This document shows, piece after piece, positions 8,748 to 54,126 of a stretch of DNA of 64,000 nucleotides. Within the stretch, counting starts at the first letter, position 1. Every line of letters begins with the position of its first letter. Below the pieces are notes generated by a model. It ran no database searches, was not told where the DNA came from, and was given only the letters and a program-made list of their open reading frames with translations. Source of the DNA: Fusarium oxysporum f. sp. lycopersici 4287 (taxonomy: Eukaryota; Ascomycota; Sordariomycetes; Hypocreales; Nectriaceae); contig NC_030988.1 in assembly GCF_000149955.1 (NCBI RefSeq), positions 1,760,109-1,824,108 of the forward strand, in the 5' to 3' direction. Made by a program: the position numbers and the translations under genes.

Positions 8748-11700
8748 CTAATGACGAGGGCATGTCTTTCCAAAGAACGCGCTGTCTTTGGACAGGTCGA
8801 TGAACTTGGTGAAGTCTTTTCCTATTGCTAGATTGACTGCTGCATTCGGTGAGGGTGCCAGCCTCATCCGATGACGCGGCGGTACATTTCTGCAGTAGAA
8901 GATGTGATCCGGTGCTTTGCGTCGGCCACATGAGCAGACCAGACGTGCATCGACGTGGTCAAATCTTTCGTGGTATGCGGCGAAGTCCCCGTGGAGAGAC
9001 CTCGCTGCCAGCAGATGGTGCAACGCTGCACGCGGGAGCAACAGCTCCGGCGGACAGCCTGTAGTCGCCTTGAGATTGAGTCTCCTGTACTGCTCAGGAG
9101 CGGAGGTGGACCACCACGCCTCGAATGCTTCTTTCGGTTTCTGTCTTGCGATTCTTCGTAGATAAGCCAGCGTCGGCTGAGCGCCTTCGGGCTCGGGGAG
9201 CGATGATGCTGCCTTTGCCAGCTTGTCGGCCTGTTCGTTGCCAGGGATGTTGGAGTGCCCTGGCACCCAGCGAACTTGGATGGCTCCATGCGATGTCGTC
9301 AGAGCTTGGAACTCGAGAAAGACGTTTTGAGAGGATTCAGAAGGAGTGCCTCGTAGACACGTGGCGGCTGCCAGGTTATCTAGGCAGATGAATATATTCT
9401 GTGTTGCTAATTCTCGCAGGGTTAGAGCAGCCTTCAGGCCCTCTAAAGCCCCGGTAGCTTCAGCATCGAAAACCTCAGCAGGTCCGAGGCGACCTGATCC
9501 GTCAAAGATGGGGATATTGTTTTCATGGATGGTGAAGCCATAGCTGGCAGCCCCTTCTGAGGAAAGAGAGCCATCCGAGTATACGACCAAGGTGAGCGGG
9601 TCGAGAGACTCGACCCAGCGGGAAAAGGCGTCAGCCGATTTCTCTTTAGACGCTGTCTGCAGTGGAGGCATCTGTTCTTGATGGAAGCATCGGTAGACGA
9701 GTTTCGGCCGCGTGCAGGGTGCAAAGAGTTCGTTTGCACGTCGAAGGCGCGTCCTGAAGCTGTTCTCTGCCTGTATTTGATATCTTCGTTTGATGAGGTC
9801 GTGGTAAGTAGGCTGTCGGGGCGGGCGCGTTCGGATCGCCAGAGGATGAGCCTCATCCAGCGATTTGAGTCGTGCAGAGAACCTAAGTCGCCTCGCGTCA
9901 AGCAATTGATCGACTGGTGGTATCCCGCTTTCTCTGTGGAGGACGGTGATGGGTGTCGTCTTCCAGACGGGAAGAATGGCCTTCATAGCCTGTTTCATGG
10001 CTTTTGTCATTATTTGCACGAGATGCTGGTTACTCGATGGTAGATCTTTCGTAGGATGGGTCCACCGCGGCCTGGTCTTGCCCGGGTACCACGCCTCGGA
10101 GCCGTGGAGCAGCACTGGCTCGGCACATGCTCTGACGGCGCCTCGCACGGCGCTCGGTAGAGGGCCGTGTACCGTGTTGGTGAGCCCCCGCAGATGATAA
10201 GCCACTGCCTTTGCTTTCGCCGCCCACTTTTCGACATGAAGTCGAAAAGATAGTCTGCTATCCAACCAGATACCAAGCCAGCGTAGAGCTGGTTCAGGGT
10301 ATTTCTCGACATCGCCGTGGCGTACTGCCGGCGCAGTCCTGAGTTTGCTGCGGGAGAAATGCATGACTTCGGTCTTCTTCGTGTCGAAGGACACGCCATT
10401 CTCCGCGCCCCATCGCACCATCTCGGCGATAGATCTAGATGCCATGGCAGAAGTCTCGTCTACTGTGTCGCCTATGGACAGGATGGCCGTGTCGTCTGCA
10501 TAGCCGAAGCGACCCTGAGGGTTCCCTAATCGATAGATTGGCTCAGTGTAGAGCAGAAAGAGGATTGGCGATACCGGCGACCCCTGAGGGAGGCCGCACT
10601 GAAGGGGAGAAGAGAGCGTGACTGTGTCTTGGTACCTGACACGCGCCGACCGGCCGCCCATGAAGGAGCCGGCCCAGCGAGCCAGATGATTAGGCCAGCC
10701 TTGCTCACGAAGACGCAGGATGAGCCTGTTGCGCATGACGGTGTCGAAAGCACCTTGGACGTCCATTGTGACTATAGTCGCCACCTTCTTGCGTGCGAAC
10801 GCTTCTTCAATATCATGGACCAGAGCAGTTACCAAGTCTGTTGCCGACCTCTTGGGGAGCGCCCCAGCTTGCTGCGGATGAAGGACGCTGTAGTGAACGG
10901 CTGCCCAGGCTAGGCGGCGCGCGATCAGTCGTTCTAGTCCTTTACCAAGACAGGAGAGCAGTGAGATGGGTCGCCATGCTCGTGGTTCGGTAAGGTCTCT
11001 CCGTCCCGGTTTCGTGATCATGACCACCTCCGCCTCCTTGAATGGTTTTGGCTGATGGCCTATGGTAAGGCATCTTTCGAAGAGACGACGGACGTGTGTA
11101 CCGATGGCATGCCATACTGCTTCAAGAAGTTTGACTGTGATGTTGTCTGACCCTGGGGATGTATTGCCTGTGTGACAAGTCGCATATTGCGCCTCCTCCA
11201 GAGAGATTCCGGGAGAAAATGGGATCGATCTAGGTGGGAATACTGGCGTCCATGCGTTTGCGATGTCGTCCTCCACAGTTCTTCGTTCAAGCGTGGCCTG
11301 TCGGAGTGCGTTGGCTTTACCCATCTGGGTTTCATACACGACGTTATCGACCTGTAGAGGTGGCGGCTGGAAAGCTTCTGGGGACTTTAGCCACCGGACA
11401 GCTTTGAAAACGTCGCTACTGCTGGAGAAGCCATCGATGAGGTTACGCCAATAGCGCCTCTTGGCCCGACGGAGCACACGATGAAAGCCTCTTTTGGCGA
11501 TCTGAACGTCCTGGTTGAAGCCGCATGGGTAGCTTCTTCTGATGGCTCGAAAAGCAGCCGCGGCGTCGGCGCACTCCTCTGTCCACCAGGGAGCTGGGCG
11601 TCCGCCTTTCCGCGCGGGCCGGCCAGCTGCCTTCGCTGCTGATGTCAATAGAGTTACAAGTGAAGACGCAAGCTCGTCCAGCTCCGCAGGGGTCGAATCT

Positions 11701-12491
11701 CTCAGGGGGATTTCTGTGGCTCCGAGCTCTACGATCTCGACAAATCGTTTGAGCTCATCTTCCGTCGTCACTCGAATCTTGCCCAGCTGTATCGGGGCCG
11801 GCCTGAGGTCAGGGAAGGTCAAGCTGAGGGTGAAGTGGTCAGAGCTAGTGGCGAGATGGTCCTCGACGGTAGCTTCAGCAAGTGGCAGGTTCGTAAACGC
11901 AAGATCGATTGTGTTGCCGTATGGGTTTGTCGGGATATATAGGGTGTTGAGAAGGTCGAGGTCATTCTCCGATGCCCATCCTGCTATCTCTTGGCCCCGA
12001 TTCGTAGCTTGGCCTGTCTGCCAGCTACGATGTCTAGCATTGAAATCGCCAGCAACAAAGCAGCGTTCCGGGACCGACTACCGAAGCAGCGTGTTCAGGG
12101 CGTCTTTCTCGTCGTTCTGGCGATAGACGTTGACTACAGTCATGCCGTTGATCGTGAGCCAAAGGATATCGCGAGTCTGGAAGGGTCGAATCTGGTCAGC
12201 CAGAAGTCTGGGGTCTCGCCGGACATATGTCATGACTCTAGGCCGAGTATCATTGCTGTTCCACATGTCGACCGGCGTAAATGTGTCGTATGCAGGGTGA
12301 GTCTTAGTTAAAGTGCGGGTCTCTGTGTGAGCCGTCCACGGCTCTTGCAAGAGCACAACGTCATATTGTTCCGAGTCGGCCAGCGCCAGGGCGCAGTCGT
12401 GGGCCGGAGGGATCTTGCCGACGTTGGCCTGGAAGATCCTGAACGGCTTCCTGTCGTTCTTTCGTGTTTGAGAATATCTATTCCTGGCCAT
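8748..12491 (-). pseudogene. LINE copy A ORF2: endonuclease-RT-RNase H, one nonsense codon
   Basis: From ATG at 12491 a single frame of about 1247 codons runs to 8748, interrupted only by TAG at 12078-12080. Copy B has TGG (Trp) there, so one G-to-A change disabled it. Order: APE-type endonuclease (FQANVGKIPP, LLQEPW, GDFNAR, TSSDHFTLS), reverse transcriptase (LPQGSPVSPILF; YADD at 10491-10502), RNase H (VVYSDGSL, DAEATGALEGL, FICLDN, WVPGHSNIPGNEQADKLA) and a C-terminal Cys/His motif (CSCGRRKAPDHIFYC). The start overlaps the end of ORF1 by 14 nt. Apart from the stop the protein appears complete. Confidence 0.93.
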
Positions 12492-28560: not shown

Positions 28561-28710
28561 TGTTAAACAAGTGCTGGAGTATCACGTGCAAGCAGGGATG
28601 CTTAAGATTACGCGCCAAAATGGCGAACCCTTCAAGGGGCAGATTTCAACAGAACACAAGATGAATACACCAATTCACATCAATGAACCGAATACACGTA
28701 ATGTTTGACA
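28561..28710 (+). repeat. copia copy 1, 3' LTR
   Basis: Starts TGTTAAACAAGTGCTGGAGT: compared with the 5' LTR it carries several G-to-A changes (TGTTGAACAGG becomes TGTTAAACAAG). A purine-rich tract with seven G (about 28552-28558) precedes it and would serve as polypurine primer. Confidence 0.93.
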
Positions 28711-28753
28711 GTAACACTCGCTTGTTTGTAACACTCGCTTATCACGTACGTTA
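28711..28753. repeat. right end of a pogo-type MITE (10-mer GAGTGTTAC type)
   Basis: Reads, on the minus strand, TAACGTACGTGATAAGC, then GAGTGTTAC, AACAAGC and GAGTGTTAC. This is the modular terminus described for the MITEs at 32723-33594. It is cut off on its inner side by the copia LTR. Confidence 0.75.
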
Positions 28754-32722: not shown

Positions 32723-33594
32723 TAACGTACATGATGAGCGAGTGTCTCAGACAAGCGAGTGTCTCACCTCACTTTACACCTAAAAAGCTGGCTTTTAAAA
32801 GCTTATATAGAATTCAGGCTACGCCCAAAAAAGCTAAAAGCTTTGTAACTTATTTTTAACTGTATAAGAAAGCTATATAACGTGTTTGATAAGTGAGTGG
32901 GTCATCCAAGTGAGTGAGTCAATCTTATTTCCACCTTAAATCCGGGGTTTAAAAAATTCTTTAAAAATTCAAACTAAGCCTAAATTGGCTGTAATTTTAG
33001 TAGCCTATATATAAGTCTTAAAATATATTATATAAATTTTTTAAGACTTTTAGAAAAATTCTATATAGCTATAAACCTTAAAACCTATTTATACTGTATT
33101 TTATACTGTATAATTAAGCTTTACTATATAAAATAAAATAGCTAAAAGTCTTAAAAAAATATTTTATAATAAGGTTAACTATACTATTCTTAAAAATATT
33201 TTTTTTAAATTTTTATCTATTTTATTTAGAATAAAAAAATACTATAGGGTAGGTTTTTTAATACTATACAGTGCAGTGACTCACTTACTTGTCTGACCCA
33301 CTCACTTATCAAACACGTTACTTCATAAAAGAATTATAGCTAAATTATTCGTAGAGTTATTAAAGAAAATCTATTTATACTGTATTTTAACAGGTTTTTT
33401 AGATAATATAATGCTAAAGAAAATCTAAAAAATAATATTTTAGTTTTAAAAGCTGTACTACTTAAAACTATAACTTTTAATATTTTCTATTATTTTATTT
33501 TAGCTAAAAAAGTGCTGTAGGGTAAGCTGTATTTAGGTAACACAGTATAGTGAGACACTCGCTTGTCTGAGACACTCGCTTATCATGTACGTTA
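32723..33594. mobile_element. pogo-type MITE X (TA to TA), interrupted by MITE Y
   Basis: Ends in about 45-bp inverted repeats: from the left TA-ACGTACATGATGAGC, GAGTGTCTCA, GACAAGC, GAGTGTCTCA, and the complement at 33551-33594, flanked by TA. After removal of the nested element Y it is about 430 bp, AT-rich and without coding capacity. The same family recurs at 41108-54057. Confidence 0.88.
32878..33320. mobile_element. pogo-type MITE Y nested inside MITE X
   Basis: Starts TA-ACGTGTTTGATAAGT, GAGTGGGTCA, a 7-nt spacer, GAGTGAGTCA, and ends in the complement at 33278-33320. The architecture equals that of X but the 10-mers differ. It is 443 bp including the flanking TA pairs, strongly AT-rich and non-coding. 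Confidence 0.85.
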
Positions 33595-33689
33595 TTCCAT
33601 CCCACAGGTTTTACTTTAAATCACCCAGCTTGATTACTAAGGGCTGTTGTTCCTGAGGATCATTGAGACCATGCCCGGCCTGCGACAGG

Positions 33690-35534
33690 GTGTTACAGAT
33701 AAGCGAGTGTTACAAAAGTCTTCATCTTAAAAATAAAAATCTCAATAAAAACACAATAAAGTATCTAATCGTTTAATTCTAATTGCTATACTCTTCTGCA
33801 GAGGCCTCAATACCCTCTTGACAGGTCCTTGCATTATGCCCGGCCTTGCCGCATCTCCCACAGCGCCGAACCCCCGGTCGCATCGACCTTCCCTGACCAC
33901 CACTTTTCGACAATTCGGCCACTACCTGCATATCTATATCTATCTGATCAGTTAAATCCCGACCTTCCTCTACTGCCATCTTCCCTCTATTCTGTAGGCG
34001 GGTTCTTTTTTCTCTGCGCCGTCGGCTAAGTATCTCATTCGCCTGTCGAAGATCTTGAATCTCAGCCCTCATTAAAACCATCTCATGCATAACTGCCTTC
34101 GTTCCTTTTGAAAGAGACTTTAGTGCTTCTAAAATTGACTCTGGAGAGCTGCTTTGATGCCTTCTAACTCGTCTTTCAAGGTATTCAGACTGCAATTCAG
34201 CCTCAATAATTGTCTTCGGGGTCTTTGAAGTCCAAGGTTGTGCCTGGCCTGCTTCCTCCTCAGCAGGTGTTGGAGTCCGTAGCTGCACATGAAGCTTTGA
34301 GACTACACTTTCTGGATCAAAAGGGACAAGGCCAGCTCCCTTAAAACCTCCCTTAATATTCTTCTCGGTCATAGTAGCCTGAAAAGCGGCATAAAAGGCC
34401 GGGAAGAACTCGGTCTTCGAAATGTGAGTTATAGAGCTTCTGATTAGATGCTCAATTTCTCGACCATATGCCTTTTTCAGCGGCCCAAAGCACCCGATGT
34501 CAAGAGGCTGAAGTAGATGAGATGAATGAGGCGGCATACAAAGCGTAATAATATTATGCTCCTCACAATATATCTCAAAGTCGGTCGAGTGGTGACTTTC
34601 GTGACCATCAAGGATCAGAAGACGATAGGAACCAACTGATAGATTGGCTGTACATCGGTCAAAGTGCTTTAGCCACTCAAGGCCTAGCTGGTTATTTGTC
34701 CATCCATTTTGGCTCGTTGCGATAACCCAATCGCCCGGGAGGTCGCATTCTCGGTACCAATTCGTAAGGTGATATTGGCCTGCACCAATGATAAACGGTG
34801 CGATCGATTGACCTTCTGCATTAATCGGCTGGATTACAGTAATCCATTCCCGGTTTCCAGGCTGCGCTGATTTTGGTCTGCCTTGCCTTTCTGAACCGGT
34901 GACGACCATTCCGGCCATAATAATGCCCATCATAAAGCCAGTCTCATCAAAGTTCCAGATATCATCTGATCGGATACCATACTTTGCGATTGTGTCCTGT
35001 ACGAGCCTAAACTAGCTACGAATAATCGATGGATCTTCGCATTTAGCTCTCTGGTAGTCATATTTCCGAAATAAACGCGTCTTGAGCTCTGGTTGTCGCT
35101 TTACAAAGTTATGAGCCCAGCGCTTGCCGACAGGTGACGCATCGCGGTCAGCAAGCAGAGAATTAGCCATTTCTTCCACAAAACGTAATCGCGAGGGAAA
35201 TCCTCGCGAATCTAGATCAAGAATGAATTGGACTATTATCTGCTCTTCCAGATCAGATAGTTTCCGTGACTTTGGAATCCAATCGCGTCGTGATTGAATG
35301 CCTTGCTGGCGGCGACGTAGGCGGCGCTCATCAATCTCATACATCTTTGCAGCGCGTCGGACACTTAATTTTGGATTATTCTGAAGGGCCTGAAGAGCAA
35401 GAAGGGTTTTAGCTTCAATTGAAGATTGTGACATGATAAATGGTTGAAAACTAATTGATCAGGTAAAATGTATGATGTAAGAGGGAAAAGTGCGGCGCAT
35501 ACTTGTCTGCGGCGCATGCTTATCAAACACGTTA
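33690..35534 (-). mobile_element. pogo-type transposon with zinc-knuckle transposase and unlike ends
   Basis: The right end (35491-35534) has the modular terminus with 10-mer ATGCGCCGCA twice, 57 bp before the transposase ATG. The left boundary (33690-33714) instead shows a partial terminus with GTGTTACA repeats around GATAAGC. The two ends thus belong to different MITE-type families, so the true left end was probably lost or exchanged. The boundaries on the left are uncertain. Confidence 0.65.
33779..35434 (-). pseudogene. pogo-like transposase with C-terminal CCHC knuckle, one stop codon
   Basis: From ATG 35434 to 33779 a 552-codon frame is interrupted only by TAG at 35009-35011 (probably from TGG). 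N-terminal helix-turn-helix (LSVRRAAKMYEIDERRLRRR) and Tc5-type domain lie at about 20-130. The DDE_1 core has Asp in NFDETGF, LILDGHESH and LLQPLDIGCFG. Its last 60 residues carry an acidic linker and a CCHC zinc knuckle (CGRCGKAGHNARTC), an addition absent from the pogo copies at 5.7 and 23.8 kb. The knuckle could bind nucleic acid during transposition (inference). Inactive unless the stop is read through. Confidence 0.9.
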
Positions 35535-35576: not shown

Positions 35577-37151
35577 CTACTCAGTAGTCTGTTTTTTCCG
35601 CTTTTTCGGACGTATTTCTGCAGCTGGTTTATTATTTAACTTCCAGGTATTCCTTTCAGCCCGATCACGGGCTGAGATCAATTGTGGTATATCAGGAAAA
35701 GCCTGATTAGGGTCAAAATTGACCTGCGAGCGGCCGGGTGGCCTCTGATCAACTTCTCGAGCTCTTATGATCACGATTGCCTCGTCTTTGGTGCAGTTTT
35801 CGGCTATCTTTTGATCGAGGGACTTGCCTGCCTTCCTGAGGATTAATCTGATGTCCCTTTGCACGTTTTCTGACGCCCAATTCACCTTTAAAAGCAGTTT
35901 TTCAATATCATGACTATATGAAGGCGTCGCGAAGATATCATCGCCCTGTAGAGCTTGGATTGGTGGTGTTATAAGGGGGTTTGAAATCACGGATCGACGC
36001 TCTTTGGGCTTCAACTTTAACACTGCCTTCTCAACGTCGACAGGATAAATTCCAGATGCTTTAAATGCATTCCGGATATTGTCTTGACTGAACGCTTTAT
36101 TGGAAGCTATTTTATATGCAGTTGCGAAGATATGTTTCTGCCGAGAGGATGTCGCCTCGTACGTATGCATCCCGGCCGTCTCAGCTCGATAATACCTCTT
36201 CAGAGCTGCGAAAATGCCCACATCGAGAGGTTGAGTGATATGAGAAGAATGCGAAGGCAGCCAACTGAGCCAGACCTTGTTCATATATGCCTTCTTCATG
36301 AATTCCACAGAGATATGAGTCTTATGTTGGTCCAGGACGAGAAGTCTCCATTGTGACGGGTCTTTTGGCGTCGTCCCAGGGAGAAAAACATCATAAAACC
36401 ACCGTAACATAATTTCCGTATTGCTCCAGCCCTTCTTACTGCATGTGTATTTCCAATCAGGAATAAAATCGCCAAGATTCTGGCCCTGTGATGTTTTTCC
36501 TGTATATACAATACACGGGGTTAGTCGCTGACCTGTAGCAGATATAGTCTCGAGGATTGAGATCCAAGCCGAGGCGTCAGACTGTATCTTCTCTGATGAA
36601 GTCGTCAGGACCGTTCCGGCAACAGCCCCGGCCAAAGACTCCCCTTCTTGGACTCCAGTTTCGTCGAGATTATACATGCGGTCTGAGCCTATGGATAACT
36701 CTTTGCAAATGGCCAGAAGACCACGATAATACTCCCTGAGTCCCTCCTCTGTCACTGTCTTCCTTCTTGCAGTAGAAAAAAGTCGTGATGGCTTCAAAAT
36801 AACACTCGTATGACGCCTGAAGAAACGGTTGACCCAGTTCTTGCCGAGGTGCGGTCCAAGACCGTTGAGTTCAGCAAGATGCTGTGCGTATGAGTGTATC
36901 TCTGACTTCAGAAGAGGCTGGAACGCCTTCTCACGCAGTAAAATAAGGTCAACGAGTTCCTTTTCCTGTAAAGGAGTCAGAGAGAGGAACTTTTCATGTG
37001 CTATTTGTGTCGATTAAGCACCGTTGATCCGATCCCTCAATGTCGAGCGAGGAACGGTCTCCAGCTATGATGCAGCGCGAATACTCGTCTCACGGGCGTT
37101 AGAAATGGCTCGAAAAATCCTCATTTCACGATCAGGTATATTTAAAGTCAT
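35577..37151 (-). pseudogene. second pogo-like transposase, two N-terminal stops
   Basis: The frame runs from ATG 37151 to 35577, 525 codons, with two stops near the start: TAG after IRAAS and TAA after INGA. Both sit where CAG/CAA (Gln) is likely. The remaining 406-codon stretch is open. N-terminal helix-turn-helix (FRAISNARETSIRAAS), Tc5-like region (LGPHLGKNWVNRFFRRH), catalytic Asp in YNLDETG, LVLDQHKTH and ITQPLDVGIF. A basic C-terminus (RPKKRKKQTTE) could be a nuclear signal. It belongs to a different pogo lineage from the neighbour at 33779. I could not find its TIRs. Confidence 0.88.
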
Positions 37152-41107: not shown

Positions 41108-41230
41108 TAACGTACATGATAAGCGAGTGTCTCAGACAAGCGAGTGTCTCACGTCACTTTACACCTAAAAAGCTGACTTTTCAAAGCTTATATAGAATTC
41201 AGGCTAAGTCTAAAAAAACTAAAAGCTGTA

Positions 41231-41648
41231 TAACGTAGTTGATAAGCGAGTTAGCCAGACAAGCGAGTTAGCCAGTACACTTTTCACCTTAAAACCTATT
41301 TTTTAAATAATTCTTAAAAATTCAAATCAAGCTTAAAATAGCTTATAATTAGGTAACTTATAAATACGTCCTAAAGTAAGCTATATTAATTATCTTAGAT
41401 TTTTAAATAAATCCTATATAGCTATAAACTTTAAAGTCTATTTATACTGTAAAATACACTGTATTTTAAAGTTTTCTATATAAATCAAAATTTTTAAAAA
41501 TCTTTTAAAAATACCTCTTAATAAGATTAACTATACTATTTTAGGAAAAAGGTTTATTTAATTTTTAGCTAATTTATTTAGGGATTAAAATACTATAGGG
41601 TATGCTACTTTTAGCTGCACAGTATACTGGCTAACTTGCTTGTCTGGC
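41231..41648. mobile_element. pogo-type MITE Z, right end lost
   Basis: Starts TA-ACGTAGTTGATAAGC, GAGTTAGCCA, GACAAGC, GAGTTAGCCA, and approaches its right terminus at 41628-41648 (ACTGGCTAACTTGCTTGTCT), where the solo LTR cuts it about 20 bp before the expected end. AT-rich and non-coding. Confidence 0.8.
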
Positions 41649-41798
41649 TGTTGAACAGGTGCTGGGGTCTCACGTGCAAGCAGGGATACTTTAAGATTAC
41701 AGCCGAAATGGTAAAACCTCTAAGGGGTAGATTTCAACAGAACACAACAGGAATACACCAATTCACATCAATGAACCGAATACACGTAATGTTTGACA
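41649..41798 (+). repeat. solo copia LTR inside MITE Z
   Basis: Full 150-bp LTR, TGTTGAACAGG…ATGTTTGACA. The flanking pentamers CTGGC and CAATC differ, and the remaining MITE Z end does not continue on the right, so this LTR results from recombination with sequence loss rather than simple excision. Confidence 0.9.
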
Positions 41799-42273: not shown

Positions 42274-42345
42274 ATTAAGAGTCTCAATTGCATCTCAGCG
42301 ACCCGCGCACCCAAATGCATACGACCTTCGGTTCATTCTATCACC

Positions 42346-43587
42346 ATGTCGGCCAAACACGCCGAGAGGATCATTAGCTACGCGTCTCCGGAGGATTGGG
42401 ACTCCTGGTCCAACGAATTCAAGAAACTGGCGCACGCCTACGACCTGTGGCAGTATATTGATCCGACCGATCGCATCCGATGGCCTCAGCGACCAGAACT
42501 TCCAGAAATCCGAGACTACCCCAGACAAGCAGATCCGGACGATCCCGATAGTGGCACAATGACGCCCGGCTCAGATTACGTACCGCCCCGGCGAATCGGA
42601 GAGTTGACGTCTGAAGGAAGAGCGGAATACGAGCATGATATCAGGATCTACTCTCTGAAAGAAACGGCGTATAGAGAGACGAAGAAACAGGAGCAGAAGC
42701 TGGTCGAGTTTGTCCTCAAGACGGTCTCGGCCACGTATCAGAAAACATCCTGCGTCACGGGAGACCGATTAGACAAGTGGTATCAGGAGCTACGAAGATC
42801 TGGAGTGGTATACAACGAACGCCTTCGACCCGAAGCGCGCGACAAGTACCACAAAGCCGTACATACAGCCCCGAAGATCAACAAACTCAACGAGTGGGTC
42901 ACGGAGTGGGAGACGACGATGGCCGAAGCGATCAGCAAGAAAGTCCCTGATGCCCTCGACGCGCAATGCTGGGCGGAAGACCTGAACCGAGCAATGTACC
43001 ATGTTCTCCCCAGCTGGGCATCTACTTTCCGACAACACCGACGTCCTCAAATCCTCAATAATTCCCTCAACTATCGAGAGGTCGCTGCCGACATTCGATA
43101 CGAAGCCAAAATGGCCAACGCTAGCGGAAGGCCGTCAGGAATCAAGAGAGGCGCATTCGCAGCCACATACGGCGCTGCATCCAGGAACGACAGACCTGCA
43201 ATCACAGACCGCGATAATGACACTATTGAAGTCCAAGGAGACGCCTCAGATTGGGCGACGGACGAAACATCCTATGCACATCGAGATACGCGAGGCCAAG
43301 GCCGTGGGCGTAGAGCACGAGGCGGCGGAAGAGGAGTATCAATAAAACGAAAACGAGCAGAGACGACCGTCAATCCGAACCCGGATGGCCCTACTTGTCG
43401 AGGATGTTTAGGTTTCCATGACTGGAAAGGCTGCTGGTACTTATTCCCAGCCCAGAAAGCCGAAGGATGGGAGCCCAACCAAGCGATACAACGATTAATA
43501 AACGACCGTCTCAAGAACGATACTGGTTTGGTGGAGGAAGTCAAACGATTGTCCAAAAGTAGAGACAGAACCACTCAGGACGAGTGA
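42346..43587 (+). CDS. gag: copia Gag
   Basis: 413 codons from ATG (72 nt after the LTR) to TGA. The N-terminal region resembles the capsid-like UBN2/retrotran_gag region of fungal copia elements (WDSWSNEFKKLAHAYDLWQY…). A basic Arg-rich stretch (GRGRRARGGGRGVSIKRKR) precedes a Cys-His knuckle (CRGCLGFHDWKGC, spacing 2-3-4), both RNA-binding. Gag forms the virus-like particle and packages RNA. Its frame equals that of pol, and the stop is followed by CTTGGGCGGGGT before the pol ATG, so Gag-Pol could arise by UGA readthrough. Confidence 0.93.
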   Translation: MSAKHAERIISYASPEDWDSWSNEFKKLAHAYDLWQYIDPTDRIRWPQRPELPEIRDYPRQADPDDPDSGTMTPGSDYVPPRRIGELTSEGRAEYEHDIRIYSLKETAYRETKKQEQKLVEFVLKTVSATYQKTSCVTGDRLDKWYQELRRSGVVYNERLRPEARDKYHKAVHTAPKINKLNEWVTEWETTMAEAISKKVPDALDAQCWAEDLNRAMYHVLPSWASTFRQHRRPQILNNSLNYREVAADIRYEAKMANASGRPSGIKRGAFAATYGAASRNDRPAITDRDNDTIEVQGDASDWATDETSYAHRDTRGQGRGRRARGGGRGVSIKRKRAETTVNPNPDGPTCRGCLGFHDWKGCWYLFPAQKAEGWEPNQAIQRLINDRLKNDTGLVEEVKRLSKSRDRTTQDE

Positions 43588-43599
43588 CTTGGGCGGGGT

Positions 43600-46500
43600 A
43601 TGGCACACGTCAAGGCAAGCTACCTAGTGATGCACAACTTTATCGCAGCCTTCAACTGTGCCCCCTACCCTCTCAGACATTCTGCCATCCTTGACTCTGG
43701 ATCGACAATCCATATCTTTAATGAAGTATGCAGGTTCCTCAACTACCGACCGGCACCGTCTGGAGACTTCGTCTACGCAGGGGAGTCACCAGTGGCCATT
43801 CACGGGTACGGGAACGTGGATATTCGCGTTCAAGGACCTCAAGGACCCTCTCTTCTCAGATTGCGAGATGTAGCTCATTGCATAAACTTTGCATGCAATA
43901 TTGTGTCATACCGCCAGTTGCGGAAAAGGGGCTACTACTGGGATACCAAAGGGAATAACAACCAAATCCGCAGGAAAGATGATTCAATCCTCTGCACATT
44001 GACGGATCATTTCGACCAGTACGTACTGGAGTATATCGACAAATCAACAACGGCAGCGGCATTCCTAGCCAAACGGAAACAGTATGATTCGTGGACTAAA
44101 CGCCCTCCTCGCAGTGGAGACGAAACCTTTTGGCACCTTCGACTTGGACACCCAGGGCCTGAAGCACTCAAGCACCTCGTGGGCCAATGTCGGGGGGTGA
44201 AGATCAGAGGGATCTCCACGGTTGAGTGTGATGCTTGTGGAATGGCGAAGGTGAAGCGCCAAGTCCGTCGACAAAGACGAGTTCCACCCGAGAAGGCTGG
44301 AATCCGACTCGCTATTGATTTCCACGACATGAGTGGGGATCCAGGCTACACTTCAGCTATGCTGGTCACCGACCGTTACTCTGGCTATATCTGGGACTAT
44401 TATCTTCCCGATCGAACTGCACCAACGCTTATCGGTGCACTTGAGCATCTACTCAGAACACTAGAGCGACAACTCCAGTGTAGGCCCGAAGTCATCGAGT
44501 GTGATAACGAGATCCCGGATAGTCACCAGGTAAGTGACTTCCTCAGTATCAAAAACGGGATGCGCCTAGAGCCCTCCGCGCCATATGCCCAAAGTCAAAA
44601 TGGCGGCGCAGAGCGCTCGGGGGGTGTGATCAAGGAGAAAGCTCGTGCAATGAGAGCTGGAGCAAAGCTGCCTTCGTTCCTTTGGGTTGAGATCTGGCGC
44701 GCTGCCGTATACCTATACAATAGGACACCCAAGTATATCTACAATTGGAAGACGCCATATGAGCGTTTCTACACTTACTTTGCCTTTAGGGACGGCGTGG
44801 TTGTCACGGAGCGTAAGCCCGATCAAACACACCTACGCGTGTATGGCTGTAAAGCCTTTGCGATGACGACCGATGCTTTGAAAAAGAAGAATCGGCGACA
44901 ACGACTCAATCCCCGAGGGTGGATAGGATACCTGGTCGGGTATAACTCGACAAACATCTACAGGGTCTGGAATCCGTTGACCAACAAGGTCATCTCCACT
45001 AGAGACGTGATCTTCAACGAGAAGGAGACGTTCTCTGGGGATGTCCAACACCTCAAGGATGATTTAAAAGAACTAAACGAGGAAGAACTTATTCAGCATC
45101 TCACTGATGCAGAGGTCCCACAGGGATCTAGCATCAATCTGGATGCTTCTACCCAAGAAGAAGACGAGGAATTAAGCGCCTTGCCTGAAGGACTAGCGTT
45201 TGAGCGGGAGGCTGCAAGTTATCCACATAGAGGGTTTGAACGTGATCTCACGATTACGCAGGGTGAGACTGGCAGGACACTAGTCGTAGGAGATCGCAAT
45301 CGAGAAGAGCCTGACGGGACTGATCACCCCTACACGACCGCTCGATTCACTCCCTACCTGACCCCGGAGACTTGCCCTCTACGGCCTGCTGCCCTTCTGG
45401 TCGCTACTATCAGAGAACCTCCCGTGAGGAAGGAGGGGGAAAACCCCCCTCAGTTACGAGCTGCGAAGATGGTGCATGTCCCACCTAGCGCTGGCACTTC
45501 CCCGGGACGAGACGGCGCAAATGGAGCCCCTCGTGTCATTTCAACTCCGAGCAGTTACTGGGAGGCCGCATTTAATGCCGGTCGACTCGCATCTGTGAAA
45601 GGGACCTGGAATGGCAAGGTGGTGAGTAAGCGGAAGCTCGAGAAGCAGGCGAGCTCGGCCAGCTGCCACCCTGATAGCGGAGAACCTCAGTTTACGGGAA
45701 GTCGAGGGGAATCTACTAAGCTGATGGATTCTCCCAATCGCAAAACACAATCTGCAAAGCTGACAGATTTAGGTGACGGCCAACGCCGAATACACCGGCG
45801 AGACATGCCAATATTGCCAAAAAGGCATAAAGACCTCAAGAACCATCCACTAGGTGACCTATTCCGCGAGGCAGAAAAGACTCATCTTGAAAGCCATAAA
45901 GAAATGCGCTCCTGGCGTGAGGTTCAGAGAGAAGAAGCCGCAGGCAAGGAACTCCTGGACTGCATGTGGGTTTATGTATACAAGTTCGACAAGCACGGAT
46001 GGTTCACCAAGTGCAAGGCCCGGCTCGTTGTACGAGGCGATCAACAGGCCAAGTCGACACACGAGGATACCTATGCATCCACACTTGCCGGCAGATCTTT
46101 CCGAACACTCATGGCTATAGCTGCTCGCTTTGATTTAGAACTTCTCCAGTATGATGTCGTCAACGCCTTTGTCAATGCTGAACTGAAACAGGACGTCTAT
46201 ATGCGGATGCCCGGAGGCTACCGGAAGCCTGGCCTGATCCTCAAACTTCAGAAAGCACTATACGGCTTGCGCCAGTCACCATTACTTTGGCAAAAGGAAC
46301 TAACCACCACCCTTACGAACATTGGGTTCAAGTCTGTACCTCACGAGCCATGCTGTCTCTCGAAAGGAGGAATATTGATATTCTTCTATGTGGACGACCT
46401 CATTGTTGCCTACGAGAAGACCAATCAAAGATCGGTCGAATGGACGATAGGCAAGCTTCGAGAAAAGTACCAACTCTCTGGAGGAGATATGCTACAGTGG

Positions 46501-47427
46501 TTTCTTGGAATTGAGATTATTCGCGACCGAAACCAACGTCTGATTTGGCTGTCGCAATCGTCATTCGTGGATAAGATCACTAGTCATTTTAGGATTCAAG
46601 GGGGAAAGCCTTCCCTCACTCCAATGACCACGAAAGAACTTCTTCCGAACGAAGAGCGCGCATCAACAGCGTCAATACAGCAGTATCAACGCAAGACCGG
46701 ATCAGTGCTCTACCTGGCAGTAATCACTCGACCCGATATTGCCTTTGCTGTTTCTCGACTTTGTCGATTCAACATGAACCCGAGCGATGATCACCATGAG
46801 GCCTTGGACCACCTATTCCGGTATCTGCAAAACACCAGGGCACTTGCACTACAACTCGGCGGAACAGACACTTTTGATGTGTACAGTGACGCTTCCTTTG
46901 CCGACAACACAATCGATCGGAAGAGCTCGCAAGCCTACGTGATGAAGCTATTTGGAGGGACTATTGGATGGCGCGCCAACAAGCAGGACACCGTGACTAC
47001 CTCTACAACAGAGGCGGAGTTGCTGGCACTTGCGCAGGCTGCGAAGGAGTCCATGTTCATCTCCAGATTAATCACCGAGCTCGGCGTGACCCTTGACAAC
47101 AGAAGCATCATCATTCAGTGCGATAACGCGCAGACCATTCGGCTTATTAATTCCGACGTGGCGCTCCTGCAGACCAAACTTCGACACGTCGACATCCATA
47201 ACCACTGGCTACGCCAGGAAGCACTCGCTAACCGGATCTCGGTCCGGCATACTCCCACCACCGAGATGATTGCGGACGGCCTCACGAAGGCATTACCCGC
47301 TCAGCAGTTCCAGAAGTTCGTCATGCAGGTTGGCCTAGTGGATATTAACGATAAGATTCAAGAGAGAAGGTTCAAGGAGCTCACTGCGGAGGACTTTGTC
47401 AGAGCAGAGGAACAGCTTGATGGATGA
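43600..47427 (+). CDS. pol: copia Pol: protease, integrase, reverse transcriptase, RNase H
   Basis: 1275 codons without interruption. Protease: active-site motif DSGST at residues 32-36. GAG-pre-integrase zinc region: H-L-R-L-G-H…CDACG (about 178-212). Integrase core: D in AIDFHDMSG, D in ECDNE, E in GAERSGG (about 230-350). An RSP-rich linker (about 500-740) precedes the reverse transcriptase (WREVQREEAAGKELLDCMW; YVDD at 46387-46398) and RNase H (VYSDASFADN, TTEAELLALAQAAKE; about 1090-1180). Only 31 residues precede the protease site from the first ATG, which would be a poor independent start. Because it shares the gag frame and follows a single UGA, the natural product is probably Gag-Pol. 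No broken residue was seen. Confidence 0.95.
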   Translation: MAHVKASYLVMHNFIAAFNCAPYPLRHSAILDSGSTIHIFNEVCRFLNYRPAPSGDFVYAGESPVAIHGYGNVDIRVQGPQGPSLLRLRDVAHCINFACNIVSYRQLRKRGYYWDTKGNNNQIRRKDDSILCTLTDHFDQYVLEYIDKSTTAAAFLAKRKQYDSWTKRPPRSGDETFWHLRLGHPGPEALKHLVGQCRGVKIRGISTVECDACGMAKVKRQVRRQRRVPPEKAGIRLAIDFHDMSGDPGYTSAMLVTDRYSGYIWDYYLPDRTAPTLIGALEHLLRTLERQLQCRPEVIECDNEIPDSHQVSDFLSIKNGMRLEPSAPYAQSQNGGAERSGGVIKEKARAMRAGAKLPSFLWVEIWRAAVYLYNRTPKYIYNWKTPYERFYTYFAFRDGVVVTERKPDQTHLRVYGCKAFAMTTDALKKKNRRQRLNPRGWIGYLVGYNSTNIYRVWNPLTNKVISTRDVIFNEKETFSGDVQHLKDDLKELNEEELIQHLTDAEVPQGSSINLDASTQEEDEELSALPEGLAFEREAASYPHRGFERDLTITQGETGRTLVVGDRNREEPDGTDHPYTTARFTPYLTPETCPLRPAALLVATIREPPVRKEGENPPQLRAAKMVHVPPSAGTSPGRDGANGAPRVISTPSSYWEAAFNAGRLASVKGTWNGKVVSKRKLEKQASSASCHPDSGEPQFTGSRGESTKLMDSPNRKTQSAKLTDLGDGQRRIHRRDMPILPKRHKDLKNHPLGDLFREAEKTHLESHKEMRSWREVQREEAAGKELLDCMWVYVYKFDKHGWFTKCKARLVVRGDQQAKSTHEDTYASTLAGRSFRTLMAIAARFDLELLQYDVVNAFVNAELKQDVYMRMPGGYRKPGLILKLQKALYGLRQSPLLWQKELTTTLTNIGFKSVPHEPCCLSKGGILIFFYVDDLIVAYEKTNQRSVEWTIGKLREKYQLSGGDMLQWFLGIEIIRDRNQRLIWLSQSSFVDKITSHFRIQGGKPSLTPMTTKELLPNEERASTASIQQYQRKTGSVLYLAVITRPDIAFAVSRLCRFNMNPSDDHHEALDHLFRYLQNTRALALQLGGTDTFDVYSDASFADNTIDRKSSQAYVMKLFGGTIGWRANKQDTVTTSTTEAELLALAQAAKESMFISRLITELGVTLDNRSIIIQCDNAQTIRLINSDVALLQTKLRHVDIHNHWLRQEALANRISVRHTPTTEMIADGLTKALPAQQFQKFVMQVGLVDINDKIQERRFKELTAEDFVRAEEQLDG

Positions 47428-48435: not shown

Positions 48436-51400
48436 CTAGTAGCGAGGGCAAATTTTCCCAAAGAACGCGCTGTCTTTAGACAGATCGATAAACTTGGTAA
48501 AGTCTCTTCCTATTGCTAGATTGACTGCTGCATTCGGTGAGGGTGCTAGCCTCATCCGTTGACGCTGCGGTACCTTTCTGCAGTAGAAGATATGATCCGG
48601 TGCTTTGCGTCGGCCGCATGAGCAGACCAGGCGCGCATCGCCGTGGTCGAACCTCTCGTGATACGCGGCGAAGTCCCCGTGGAGGGACCTCGCTGCCAGC
48701 AAGTGGTGTAAGGCTGCGCGCGGGAGCGTCAGCTCTGGTGGGCAGCCTGTAGTCGCCTTGAGGTTGAGTCTCTTGTATTGCTCAGGAGCGGAGGTAGACC
48801 ACCACGTCTCGAATCCTTCTTTTGGTTTTTGTCTCGCGATCCGTCGTAGGTAAGCCAGCGTTGGTTGAGCACCTTCAGGTTCGAGGAGTGATGACGCTGC
48901 TTTTGCCAGTTTATCGGCCTGTTCATTGCCAGGGATAGAGGAGTGTCCTGGGACCCAGAGTACTTGTGTGGCTCCGTGCGATGCCGCTAGAGCCTGAAAC
49001 TCGAGAAAGACGTCTTGAGAGGAGTCGGAGGGCGTGCCTCGCAGGCACGTGGCGGCCGCGAGGTTATCTAGACAGATGAAAATGGTTTGCGCTGCTGACC
49101 CTTGCAGGTTCAGGGCAGCTTTGAGGCCCTCTAATGCCCCAGTAGCTTCAGCGTCGAAGACCTCGGCAGGCCCAAGGCGACCTGATCCATCGAAGATGGG
49201 GACATTGTTCTGATGAATGGTGAAGCCGTAGCTTGCAGCTCCTTCCGAGGATAGAGAGCCATCTGAGTATACGACCAAGGTGAGCGGGTCGAGTCTCTCA
49301 ACCCAGTGGAGGAAGGCGCCAGTCGATTTCTCTTTTGACGCCATCTGGAGTGGAGGCATCTGTTCTTGATGGAAGCATCGCTGGACGAGTTTTGGCCGCT
49401 CGCAGGGCGCAAGCAGCTCGTCTGTGCGTCGGAGACGTGTCCTGAAGACACTTTTTGTCTGTATTTGATATCTTCGTTTGATGAGGTCGTGGTAGGTAGG
49501 TCGGTCAGGCGGTCGACGCGGGCGCGTTCGGCACGCCAGAGGGTGAGCCTCGTCTAGCGATTTGAGTCGTGCGGCGAATCTTAGTCGCTTTGCTTCGAGC
49601 AATTGGTCAATTGGTGGTATACCGCTTTCCCTATGTAGGATGGCGGTGGGAGTCGTCTTCCAGACAGGTAGTATCGCTCTCATGGCCTGATTCATGGCTT
49701 TGTTCATTATTTGTATGAGATGCTGATTGCTCGACGGTAGTTCCTTTGTGGGCTGATTCCATCGCGGCCTAGTGCTGCCTGGATACCACGCCTCCAAGCC
49801 GTGAAGTAGCACTGGCTCGACACATGCTCTGACAGCACTTCGAACGGCGCTCGGTAGAGGGCCGTGTATCGTGTTAGTGAGACCCCGTAAATGATAGGCT
49901 ACTGCCTTCGCTTTAGCCGCCCACTTCTCGACATGCAGTCGGAAAGATAGCCTGCTGTCCAGCCAGATGCCCAGCCAGCGCAGCGCTGATTCGGGGTGCT
50001 TCTCTACATCGCCATGACGTACTGCTGGGGCAGTCCTGAGTGTTCTACGGGAGAAGTGCATGACTTCGGTCTTCTTCGTGTCGAAGGAAACGCCGTTCGC
50101 CGCGCCCCATCGCACCATCTCCTCAATGGAACTGGATGCCATGGCAGTAGTCTCGTCTACCGTGTCGCCTATGGACAGGATGGCCGTGTCGTCTGCATAG
50201 CCGAAGCGACCCCGGGGATTGCCCAGTCGATAGATTGGCTCAGTGTAGAGCAGAAAGAGGATCGGCGATGCCGGCGACCCCTGAGGGAGGCCGCACTGTA
50301 GGGGAGAAGAGGGCGTGACGGTGTCTTGGTACCTGACACGCGCAGACCGGCCGCTCATGAAGGAGCCAGCCCAGCGAGCCAAATGGTTAGGCCAGCCCTG
50401 TTCGCGAAGACGCAGGACGAGCCTATTGCACATGACGGTATCGAAAGCACCCTGGATATCCATTGTGACTAGAGTCGCCACTTTCTTGCTTGCAAACGCT
50501 TCTTCGATGTCATGTATCAGGGCTGTCACCAGGTCTGTTGCCGACCTCTTGGGCAACGCCCCCGTTTGCTGTGGGTGAAGGACGCTGAAGTGCACCGTTG
50601 CCCAGGCCAGACGGCGTGCGATCAGCCGCTCGAGTCCCTTGCCGAGACAAGAGAGCAGCGAGATTGGTCGCCATGCTCGTGGCTCTGTGAGGTCTCTGCG
50701 CCCCGGTTTTGCGATCATGACCACCTCCGCCTCCTTGAATACTTTTGGATGATGGCCTGTTGCAAGGCATCTTGCGAAGAGACGGCGGACGTGTGTCCCG
50801 ATGATATGCCATACTGCCTCGAGAAGTTTGACTGTGATGTTGTCCGATCCCGGGGACGTGTTGCCTGTGCTTAGGGTTGCGTACTGCGCCTCTTCCATGG
50901 AGATCTCTGAAGGGAACGGTATCGGTCTACGAGGAGTGACAGGCGTCCAAGGGTTTGCAATGTCGTCCTCTGCAGTTCTTCGTTCTAACGTAGCCTGTCG
51001 GAGTGCATTGGCTTTGTCTATCTGGGTCTCATAGACAACATTGTCGACTTGTAGCGGTGGAGGCTGAAAGGCTCCAGGGGATTTCAGCCACCGGACAGCT
51101 TTGAAAACAGCGCTGCTGCTGGAGAAGCTATCGATGAGGTTCCGCCAATACTTCCTTTTAGCACGACGGACTACACGGTGAAAGTCTCTCTTGGCCATCT
51201 GGACATCTTGGTTGAAGCCCAGAGGGTAGCTACGTCTGATGGCTCGAAAAGTAGCCGCGGCGTCGGCGCACTCCTCCGTCCACCAGGGAGCTGGACGTCC
51301 ACCTTTGCGTGCAGGCCGGCCAGATGCTTTTGCTGCTGATGTTAGTAGATTTACGAGTGCCGACGCAAGCTCGTCTAGTTCCGCAGGGGTCGAATGTGAC

Positions 51401-52195
51401 AGGGGGATTTCCGTGGCTCCAAGTTCTACGATCTCGACGAATCGTTTGAGCTCGTCTTCCGTCGTCACTCGAATCTTGGCCGGCTGCATCGGAGTCGATC
51501 TAATATCAGGGAAGGTCAAGCTGAGTGTGAAATGGTCGGAGCTAGTGGCGAGGTGGTCCTCGACAGTAGCTTCGGCCAGCGGCAGGTTGGTGAATGCAAG
51601 ATCGATTGTGTTGCCGTGCGGATTTGTCGGTATGTCTAGAGTATTGAGAAGGTTGAGGGTCGTTCTCTGACGTCCAGTCTGCAATTTCTTGGCCGCGATT
51701 CGTAGCTTGGCCCGTCTGCCAACTATGGTGTCTGGCATTGAAATCGCCAGCGACGAGGCAGCGCTCCGGCACAGGCCATCGAAGTAGCGTGTTCAAGGCG
51801 TCCTTCTCGTCGTTCTGGCGATAAAAGTTGACTATCGTCATGCCGTTGACTGTGATCCAAAGAATGTCACGTGTCTCAAAGGGGCGAATCTGGTCAGCCA
51901 GAAGTCTTGGGTCTCGTCGAACATATGTCATCACTCTAGGCCGAGTGTCGTTGCTGTTCCACATGTCGACTGGCGTGAACGTGTCGTACGCAGGATGTGT
52001 CTTGGTTAGGCAGCGGGCTTTAGTATGAGCTGTCCACGGCTCCTGCAGGAGTGCAATGTCATATCGTTCCGAGTCGGCTAGCGCCAGGGCGCAGTCGTGG
52101 GCTGGTGGGATCTTGCCGACGTTGGCCTGGAAGACCTTGAGTGGCTTCTTATCGTTCTTTCGTGTCTGCGAGTACCTATTCCTGGTCATAGTCAT
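48436..52195 (-). pseudogene. LINE copy B ORF2: endonuclease-RT-RNase H, one frameshift
   Basis: ATG at 52195 opens the APE endonuclease (FQANVGKIPP, LLQEPW, AGDFNARHHSW). An extra G in the run 51657-51659, absent from copy A, shifts the frame. The remaining 1090 codons then run to 48436 without a stop: TIDLAFTNLP and TSSDHFTLS (end of endonuclease), reverse transcriptase (GLPQGSPASPILF; YADD at 50188-50199), RNase H (VVYSDGSL, FICLDN, WVPGHSSIPGNEQAD) and CSCGRRKAPDHIFYC. Copy A has the correct frame at this place but carries a nonsense codon nearby, so neither is intact, although each is sound where the other fails. Confidence 0.94.
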
Positions 52196-53816: not shown

Positions 53817-54126
53817 CGCCGCGGCTTGCGGCTGCGCGAAGAGCAGGTTGGGTCGTTTGTTGTGCGCTTGTTAAGGATCTTGGTGCAGGCAAGGGCCACT
53901 TTCTTAACACTTGTATGCCAAGAAAGTGTGATGACAAAGGAAGGTGTTTTCTATTATTTATTTTAGCTAAAAAAGTGTTATAGGGTAAGCTGTTTTTAGG
54001 TAGCACAGTATAGTGAGACACTCGCTTGACTGAGGCACTCGCTTATCATGTACGTTATACAATTTATGGCAACTCAAACCATAAATATATCTTCAGATCT
54101 CGATCAAATACAAGAGGTCGATTCCT

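Follow-up and report, generated by a model that had tools for sequence, protein, structure and literature searches.

Among fungal transposons, three described systems come closest to the elements considered here. Fot5 of Fusarium oxysporum encodes a pogo-like transposase, is represented in Fol4287 by around 64 intact transposase genes, and is accompanied by mFot5, a miniature inverted-repeat transposable element (MITE) of <500 bp with Fot5-like terminal inverted repeats (TIRs) (accessible part of PMC3599309). DAHLIAE1 of Verticillium dahliae is 1861 to 1862 bp long, with an open reading frame (ORF) that starts at nucleotide 100 and encodes 551 amino acids with HTH_psq and/or HTH_Tnp_Tc5 plus DDE_1; it has an ACGT tip and 15- to 17-bp direct repeats within TIRs of 41 to 62 bp, and its termini differ by subfamily, while DAHLIAE2 carries three 17-bp repeats at one end and two at the other, the direct repeats being taken as transposase-binding sites (accessible part of PMC3441728). 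The Trem elements of Paracoccidioides (Tc1/mariner; mostly 1850 to 1891 bp, with TremF at 2329 bp) have TIRs consisting of two 17-bp direct repeats, and the accessible part of the same report states two-repeat TIRs for Aft1 and Tan1 as well, with Pot2 and Fot1 named in a figure legend (PMC2836289). Each combination of terminus and transposase is held to lend transposition some specificity (accessible parts of PMC3441728 and PMC4188875), and the accessible part of PMC4495683 adds nothing on direct repeats in Fot1-like elements. Here, we describe elements of this kind in 64,000 nucleotides (nt) of F. oxysporum f. sp. lycopersici 4287, positions 1760109 to 1824108 of contig C3 (the window), and in the remainder of the 61.2-Mb genome.

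The termini in the window follow the plan TAACGT-NNN-TGATAAGY-N10-GACAAGY-N10, in which the variable 10-mer (hereafter, the word) belongs to a 17-bp unit. Covariation between words and proteins makes it very probable that these termini are arrays of 17-bp transposase-binding units, with the word as the specificity part, read by residues 36, 37, 41, and 52 of the transposase.

The elements themselves are of a known kind, Fot5-like pogo/Fot1 transposons and mFot5-like MITEs. The termini flank elements of approximately 1.86 kb (full copies, about 1.864 kb) with a single ORF of about 551 amino acids. Across the genome, 35 distinct elements retain both ends; they measure 1840 to 1870 bp, end in TAACGT, have TIRs of about 44 bp, and lie at a TA insertion site. 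The transposase in the window scores 26.7 bits for HTH_Tnp_Tc5 (cutoff, 22.2), 107.1 for DDE_1 (cutoff, 22), and 18.2 for HTH_psq, below the cutoff of 20.4, and the three domains occur together in many of its protein relatives. Among the matches listed, the relatives that name an organism are nearly all from Fusarium, mostly F. oxysporum, other sources seen including Drechslerella (P0006) and Verticillium (P0059); P0027, annotated as a Fot5 transposase, is 69% identical. No relatives outside this genome were found in the viral-contig and genome-contig collections.

These elements thus combine the domains, TA site, TIRs, and Fot5 relatives of a pogo/Fot1 transposon with the tip, repeats, and ORF of the DAHLIAE1 type, and the MITEs, at 430 to 455 bp (approximately 440 bp), are noncoding and have termini on the Fot5-like plan, as in mFot5 (<500 bp). 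The first-pass annotation of this sequence, which knew of no named fungal element built in this way, was mistaken on that point, because 15- to 17-bp direct repeats in TIRs are already published for Trem (PMC2836289) and DAHLIAE1/2 (PMC3441728). Fot5/mFot5 resembles the present elements in its pogo-like transposase, short MITE with the same TIRs, and many intact copies, but the accessible part of its description mentions neither 17-bp units nor word types and does not relate words to the transposase (PMC3599309). DAHLIAE1 shares the ACGT tip, the direct repeats in the TIR, and the ORF of approximately 551 amino acids from about nt 100, but the corresponding account is of five subfamilies, and its accessible part reports neither covariation of residues with bases nor mosaics nor an exchange of words among MITEs (PMC3441728). 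Trem shares the paired 17-bp repeats, but words are not compared with transposase residues in the accessible part of its report (PMC2836289). The window contains the following features.

28710..28753, minus strand: solo Fot5-type terminus, TAACGT-ACG-TGATAAGC-GAGTGTTACA-AACAAGC-GAGTGTTACT (pattern match).
32723..33594, unstranded: outer MITE with GAGTGTCTCA at both ends, split by an inner MITE; its word is common with autonomous element L066.
32878..33320, unstranded: inner 443-bp MITE within the outer MITE, with words GAGTGGGTCA / GAGTGAGTCA and far end AAGTGAGTCA.
33688..35534, minus strand: broken, mosaic Fot5-like pogo element with one in-frame TAG in the transposase.
35491..35534, minus strand: 5' terminus of the broken element, TAACGT-GTT-TGATAAGC-ATGCGCCGCA-GACAAGT-ATGCGCCGCA.
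35012..35434, minus strand: coding part of the bipartite DNA-binding domain (profile search; HTH_psq under and HTH_Tnp_Tc5 over the cutoff).
35306..35329, minus strand: codons of residues 36 to 43 (L009 numbering), here E36, R37, and R41, forming the third helix of the first helix-turn-helix (HTH) in a structure model.
35279..35281, minus strand: codon of linker residue 52, here W; an aromatic residue 52 pairs with T at word base 2.
33779..35011, minus strand: coding part, downstream of the in-frame stop, of the catalytic domain (DDE_1) and of a CCHC knuckle at the C terminus (knuckle by eye and by a weak profile match).
33688..33714, plus strand: 3' terminus of the broken element, truncated on the outside, GGGTGTTACA-GATAAGC-GAGTGTTACA, with a word unlike that of the 5' end.
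41108..41230, plus strand: left end of a second outer MITE, with GAGTGTCTCA twice.
41231..41648, unstranded: MITE inside the second outer MITE, with word GAGTTAGCCA; autonomous element L069 has the same word and the same AGT spacer.
54014..54057, minus strand: solo right end, TAACGT-ACA-TGATAAGC-GAGTGCCTCA-GTCAAGC-GAGTGTCTCA (pattern match).

Within the window, TGATAAGY-N10-GACAAGY with up to 2 mismatches occurs 9 times against an expectation of 0.42, a number reached by 0 of 100 shuffles. Genome-wide, collecting the core pattern with up to 1 mismatch yields 582 sites versus 14 for the reversed pattern, a stricter version yields 271 versus 0, and words starting with ATG yield 83 versus 0, although these genome-wide totals are too high, since long stretches of contig C3 are repeated, both as a mirror image and on C6 and C70. 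The shuffle and reversed-pattern controls, and the counting of distinct sequences, rule out chance, low complexity, and duplication in the assembly as sources of the repeats. In a hand comparison, terminus positions on contig C3 are mirror-symmetric around a center near 3,066,100 for about 0.4 Mb on each side; farther out, the symmetry persists but is shifted by about 16 kb. The same segments, with transposase scores that are identical, also lie on C6 and C70, pointing either to an inverted duplication of very large size or to an artifact of the assembly.

The plan is looser than first described. Five terminus types had been claimed, and all six places listed in their support fit the plan, but they comprise six word types; the spacer before TGATAAG is 3 nt rather than 3 to 4. 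The spacer is also specific to the family (ACA, GTA, GGT, GTT, GCA, AGT, GAA, and others), so that the word is not the only part to change, nor is its frame constant: 48 of 79 termini have GACAAGY as the second bracket, and the others have GATAAGC, TCCAAGY, TATAAGC, or another sequence (TCCAAGT at 32878 and AACAAGC at 28711), and the first bracket varies too. The terminus at 35491, previously assigned to a MITE, is the 5' end of the 1.85-kb transposase-bearing element, and two ends had been overlooked, at 54024 (GAGTGCCTCA/GAGTGTCTCA) and 33688 (GGGTGTTACA-GATAAGC-GAGTGTTACA).

The agreement of the two words within an end was described correctly. The fetched sequences contain 101 distinct 44-bp termini, 79 with the second bracket and 22 without it, at least 2 of the latter being, in our reading, chance matches. 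In the 79 two-bracket termini, the two words of one end differ on average at 0.92 positions, versus 4.34 between elements, and by 0 or 1 in 66 cases; words that are independent within an element were not seen among them. The two ends of an element also agree, as claimed, in 32 of the 35 distinct complete elements, but not in the window element at 33688..35534.

The number of 17-bp units per end ranges from one to four. Most of the 35 complete elements (27) have a pair of units at each end, whereas a single unit is found at the 5' end in 5 and at the 3' end in 3; L004 and L060 have three-unit ends, and a relic in L018 has a four-unit end. These longer arrays, with four units head to tail at L018:3814 and three at L060:2576, likely reflect slippage of the unit. 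The HYRTL / GAGTGTCACA family has two units at either end and was probably active recently, since nine places on C2, C3, C4, C5, and C9 (L043 to L051) encode one identical 551-amino-acid transposase.

To relate words to proteins, the N-terminal domain was read beside each 5' end in the numbering of the L009 protein. The 89 domain matches (7 without an end) reduce to 45 distinct domain-and-end rows and to 31 types defined by helix and residue 52, after omission of a distant pogo-like frame (35577-37013), rows in which the helix or the end was unreadable, and one minus-strand relic row of L011. Each type was assigned the majority word over its 5'-end copies for the covariation, class counts, and leave-one-out predictions on the 31 types, and the outer copy was used for the distance correlations, the test of all domain columns, the scan of 551 columns, and the spacer test.

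Mutual information over 56 residue-position tests singles out four pairs: residue 52 with base 2 (z = 9.3), residue 41 with base 5 (z = 8.5), residue 36 with base 8 (z = 6.7), and residue 37 with base 7 (z = 6.3), each with a family-wise P of ≤0.002. Seven further pairs have z values of 3.1 to 4.4, including 52 with base 1, 38 with base 4, and 40 with base 8 (4.4 each). In the class counts, tryptophan or phenylalanine at residue 52 accompanies T at base 2 in 11 of 11 types, and T2 occurs in none of the remaining 20; R41 goes with G5 (24/24), H, R, or K at residue 37 with C7 (10/10), R36 with C8 (9/9), and N41 with T5 and E36 with G8 (3/3 each, by majority word). These rules are chemically sensible, as R36-C8 and H/R/K37-C7 would set a basic residue against a guanine. 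In a structure model, residues 36 to 43 make up helix 3 of the first HTH and residue 52 lies in the linker, and the antiparallel run of signals along the helix matches the expectation for a first HTH that reads the inner portion of the unit. Leave-one-out prediction was correct for base 2 from residue 52 in 31 of 31 types (baseline, 20), and for the base paired with residue 41 in 27 of 27 (24), with residue 37 in 20 of 24 (9), and with residue 36 in 17 of 27 (13), compared with 13 of 27 (10), 18 of 27 (21), and 11 of 24 (15) for mismatched controls.

Several results weigh against so specific a reading. Y36, S37, and Q37 are each found with more than one base. When all 87 variable domain columns are considered across 30 families, only 41-5 (P = 0.003) and 52-2 (P = 0.005) pass the family-wise threshold, followed by 52-1 (P = 0.087), 36-8 (P = 0.092), and 37-7 (P = 0.182). 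In the scan of all 551 columns, 61 of 1026 tests within the domain and 51 of 2601 outside it exceed a z of 3; several of the strongest outside signals are due to single deviating sequences, but that between column 313 and base 1 (z = 6.9) is not.

Distances between words were next compared with distances between protein regions in 27 full-length families (r for the first four and last six word bases, respectively). Word distance is unrelated to that of the catalytic domain (r = -0.08 and -0.06) and scarcely related to that of the rest of the DNA-binding domain (0.05 and 0.05; 0.13 [P = 0.055] and 0.12 [P = 0.11] once catalytic distance is removed), but it follows the helix (0.28 and 0.47; P = 0.0002 for the latter) and, for the first four bases, the presence of an aromatic residue 52 (0.75 [P = 0.0002] and 0.04). 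The helix and aromatic-52 correlations persist with catalytic-domain distance removed, and shared ancestry alone is therefore insufficient to account for the pattern.

Two pairs of families display the halves of the word separately. L011 and L027 have the identical helix NEHRLRR, differ in having T52 versus F52, and carry the words GAGC-GTCGCA versus ATGC-GTCGCA, with 289 of 396 positions identical over residues 151 to 551; L070 and L056 have NRSTL in common, T52 versus W52, and the words GAGT-GAGCCA versus ATGT-GAGCCA. The word is therefore modular, with its first part following the linker and its last part following the helix. The 3-nt spacer may be a third readout, since R92 is mostly found with A at spacer base 1 and S92 or C92 mostly with G; this is only suggestive, because blockwise inheritance affects the part of the domain around residue 92 and because L010 and L018 do not conform.

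Mosaic elements bear on the same relationship. Sliding identity along the protein identifies the three elements of the 35 with mismatched ends as recombinants, and likewise the window element. In all four, the 5' word fits the DNA-binding domain of the element itself, and the 3' word belongs to the family that donated the C-terminal part. The window element is of the DERRL type at its 5' end (the 35534 side) and in its DNA-binding domain, is nearest to an SFETL element over residues 151 to 250, and is of the GPMKL type from about residue 251 to its 3' end (the 33688 side), where the outermost bases are missing and the bases following the terminus are identical to the 3' end of L052. L031 changes from GPMKL to SFETL at about residue 401, with a patch at 201 to 300 nearest to L016/L017; L018 changes from PRNTL to NRSTL at about residue 351; and L038 changes from DERRL to PRNTL at about residue 151. 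Catalytic and reading parts are thus shuffled by recombination, a process that would also account for the lack of linkage between the word and the catalytic domain.

The same recombination could be taken to favor mere hitchhiking, in which words drift, are homogenized by slippage or conversion, and are tied to the domain only through the first few hundred bases that they share. Unit numbers of one to four make slippage likely, linkage blocks exist because elements recombine, and the 5' word lies only some 100 to 250 bp from the domain codons. Against this, equally near parts of the domain barely correlate with the word, as given above; the signals are position specific (residue 52 with bases 1 and 2, residue 41 with base 5), the halves of the word recombine in step with helix and linker, and the words of the 3' ends, 1.8 kb away, agree in 32 of 35 elements. 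We consider hitchhiking very unlikely and favor recognition of the word by the transposase. The proposal that words correlate and coevolve with transposases, first made for whole families, is in this respect supported at finer detail than envisaged: at single residues across the 31 types, in the word-distance test, and in the mosaics.

The MITEs add a further element to this picture. They are nested twice in the window, at 32723-33594 around 32878-33320 and at 41108 around 41231; in the latter pair, the right ends are lost, that of the inner MITE being cut within its outer word by sequence starting TGTTGAACAGG. Eight MITEs with eight different words have interiors that match in 23 of 28 pairs by BLAST at an E value of ≤1e-3, the best pair being L008 (TTGCCGATTA) and L001 (GAGTGTCCCA), with 81% identity over 348 bp (E = 3e-91). 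Global alignments of these eight and the outer MITE of the window give 63 to 81% identity, with z values of 4.4 to 34.6 over letter shuffles, the most distant backbones being those of L002 and L015. Thus, a common backbone, on which many different words have stood, underlies at least most of the MITEs compared. The inner MITE at 32878..33320 is an instance: its interior is homologous to MITEs of other words, and its word is that of the autonomous element L054.

Alternatively, each MITE might have arisen by deletion from its own autonomous family, independently of the others, with no lineage ever switching words. Several MITE words do equal those of autonomous elements (L054, L066, L069, L011, and L070), and three others (GAGTGGACCA, GAGTGCCACA, and ATGTGTCCCA) have no autonomous partner among the fetched elements. 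Independent origin is nonetheless very unlikely, given that MITE interiors match one another in most pairs but find, in the 35 autonomous interiors, a best BLAST match at only chance level (E = 0.017 over 19 bp). Because the backbone is shared across words and is not detectable in autonomous elements, one MITE lineage appears to have changed address repeatedly. A single MITE, L077 (516-958), contains GAGTGAGCTA, GAGTGAGCCA, GAGTGGGCCA, and GAGTGAGTCA, as would an intermediate step of word exchange.

A backbone common to MITEs of different words, together with a largely common outer frame, might also suggest one promiscuous transposase that moves all copies, the words being neutral markers of subfamilies by descent. 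This is highly improbable: word distance is independent of the descent of the catalytic domain, and both copies of the word change jointly at both ends.

In the mechanism that we propose, an end would consist of the TA target and ACGT tip followed by one to four, usually two, putative binding units of the CENP-B-box kind. From the covariation, we infer the binding contacts: the second HTH would lie outward, on AAGY and perhaps the 3-nt spacer; the linker would lie in the middle of the unit, with residue 52 setting word bases 1 and 2 (AT if aromatic, GA or AA otherwise); and the recognition helix of the first HTH would lie inward, with residues 41, 37, and 36 reading bases 5, 7, and 8, respectively. 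Once reading residues change, a family would survive only with a matching change of word at both ends, and the result would be many families, each with a distinct address word and a mobilization system orthogonal to the others. A new word would probably reach all copies as 17-bp units slip and elements recombine with one another, and MITEs would follow by swapping words on a retained backbone. On balance, we lean toward the fullest form of this account, comprising a readable code, some thirty reader types, many of them mutually blind, and one MITE lineage repeatedly readdressed by replacement of all of its word copies.

The CENP-B box is likewise 17 bp long, and CENP-B is a domesticated protein with a single fixed specificity. 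The likeness would lie in a tandem pair of HTHs on one site, and the variable residues of the present proteins fall at about the matching place in the first HTH, the recognition helices of CENP-B (1HLV) occupying residues 38 to 48 and 119 to 130 (table in PMC4653904). Sequence similarity of the present DNA-binding domain to CENP-B was not detected; one PDB sequence search returned no match to this domain, and another returned weak matches, mostly to the C-terminal knuckle.

The elements themselves being known, it is the residue-base code and the word switching of MITEs that appear to be new. No account of a residue-to-base code, of two-word mosaics, or of a MITE backbone swapping words was found among the papers listed from the searchable literature (titles and abstract openings, with few subscription journals), and a literature query for the literal TGATAAGC with "transposon" gave no relevant title among the 20 listed of 59. 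How transposon families part until related transposases no longer move each other's copies is an old question. Here, about thirty states of this divergence would coexist in a single genome; each molecule carries its binding site together with the reader, and individual residues would be tied to individual bases, making the question directly testable. The families would also form a natural data set on DNA reading by tandem HTH domains of the CENP-B type, MITEs appear to change masters while keeping their backbone, and the code, if true, would predict the word of any Fot5-like transposase.

The remaining sequence of the window includes other mobile elements. The minus-strand frame at 35577-37013 is a second pogo-like transposase, with HTH_Tnp_Tc5 and DDE_1 and only 27% identity to its Fot5-like counterpart; beside it, no terminus on the plan described here was seen. 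Rfam and tRNA scans of the window gave no match. Left of the solo terminus at 28710..28753, where its interior would be, the sequence is Copia-like by eye. Two copies of a sequence starting TGTTGAACAGGTGCTGGGG occur at 41649 and 42122, the first of which cuts the right end of the inner MITE in its outer word; by eye, they look like the long terminal repeat ends of a Copia-like element at about 42341-47427. Two long, related frames on the minus strand, at 8748-12077 and 48436-51792, resemble LINE-type reverse transcriptase by eye, no search having been made.
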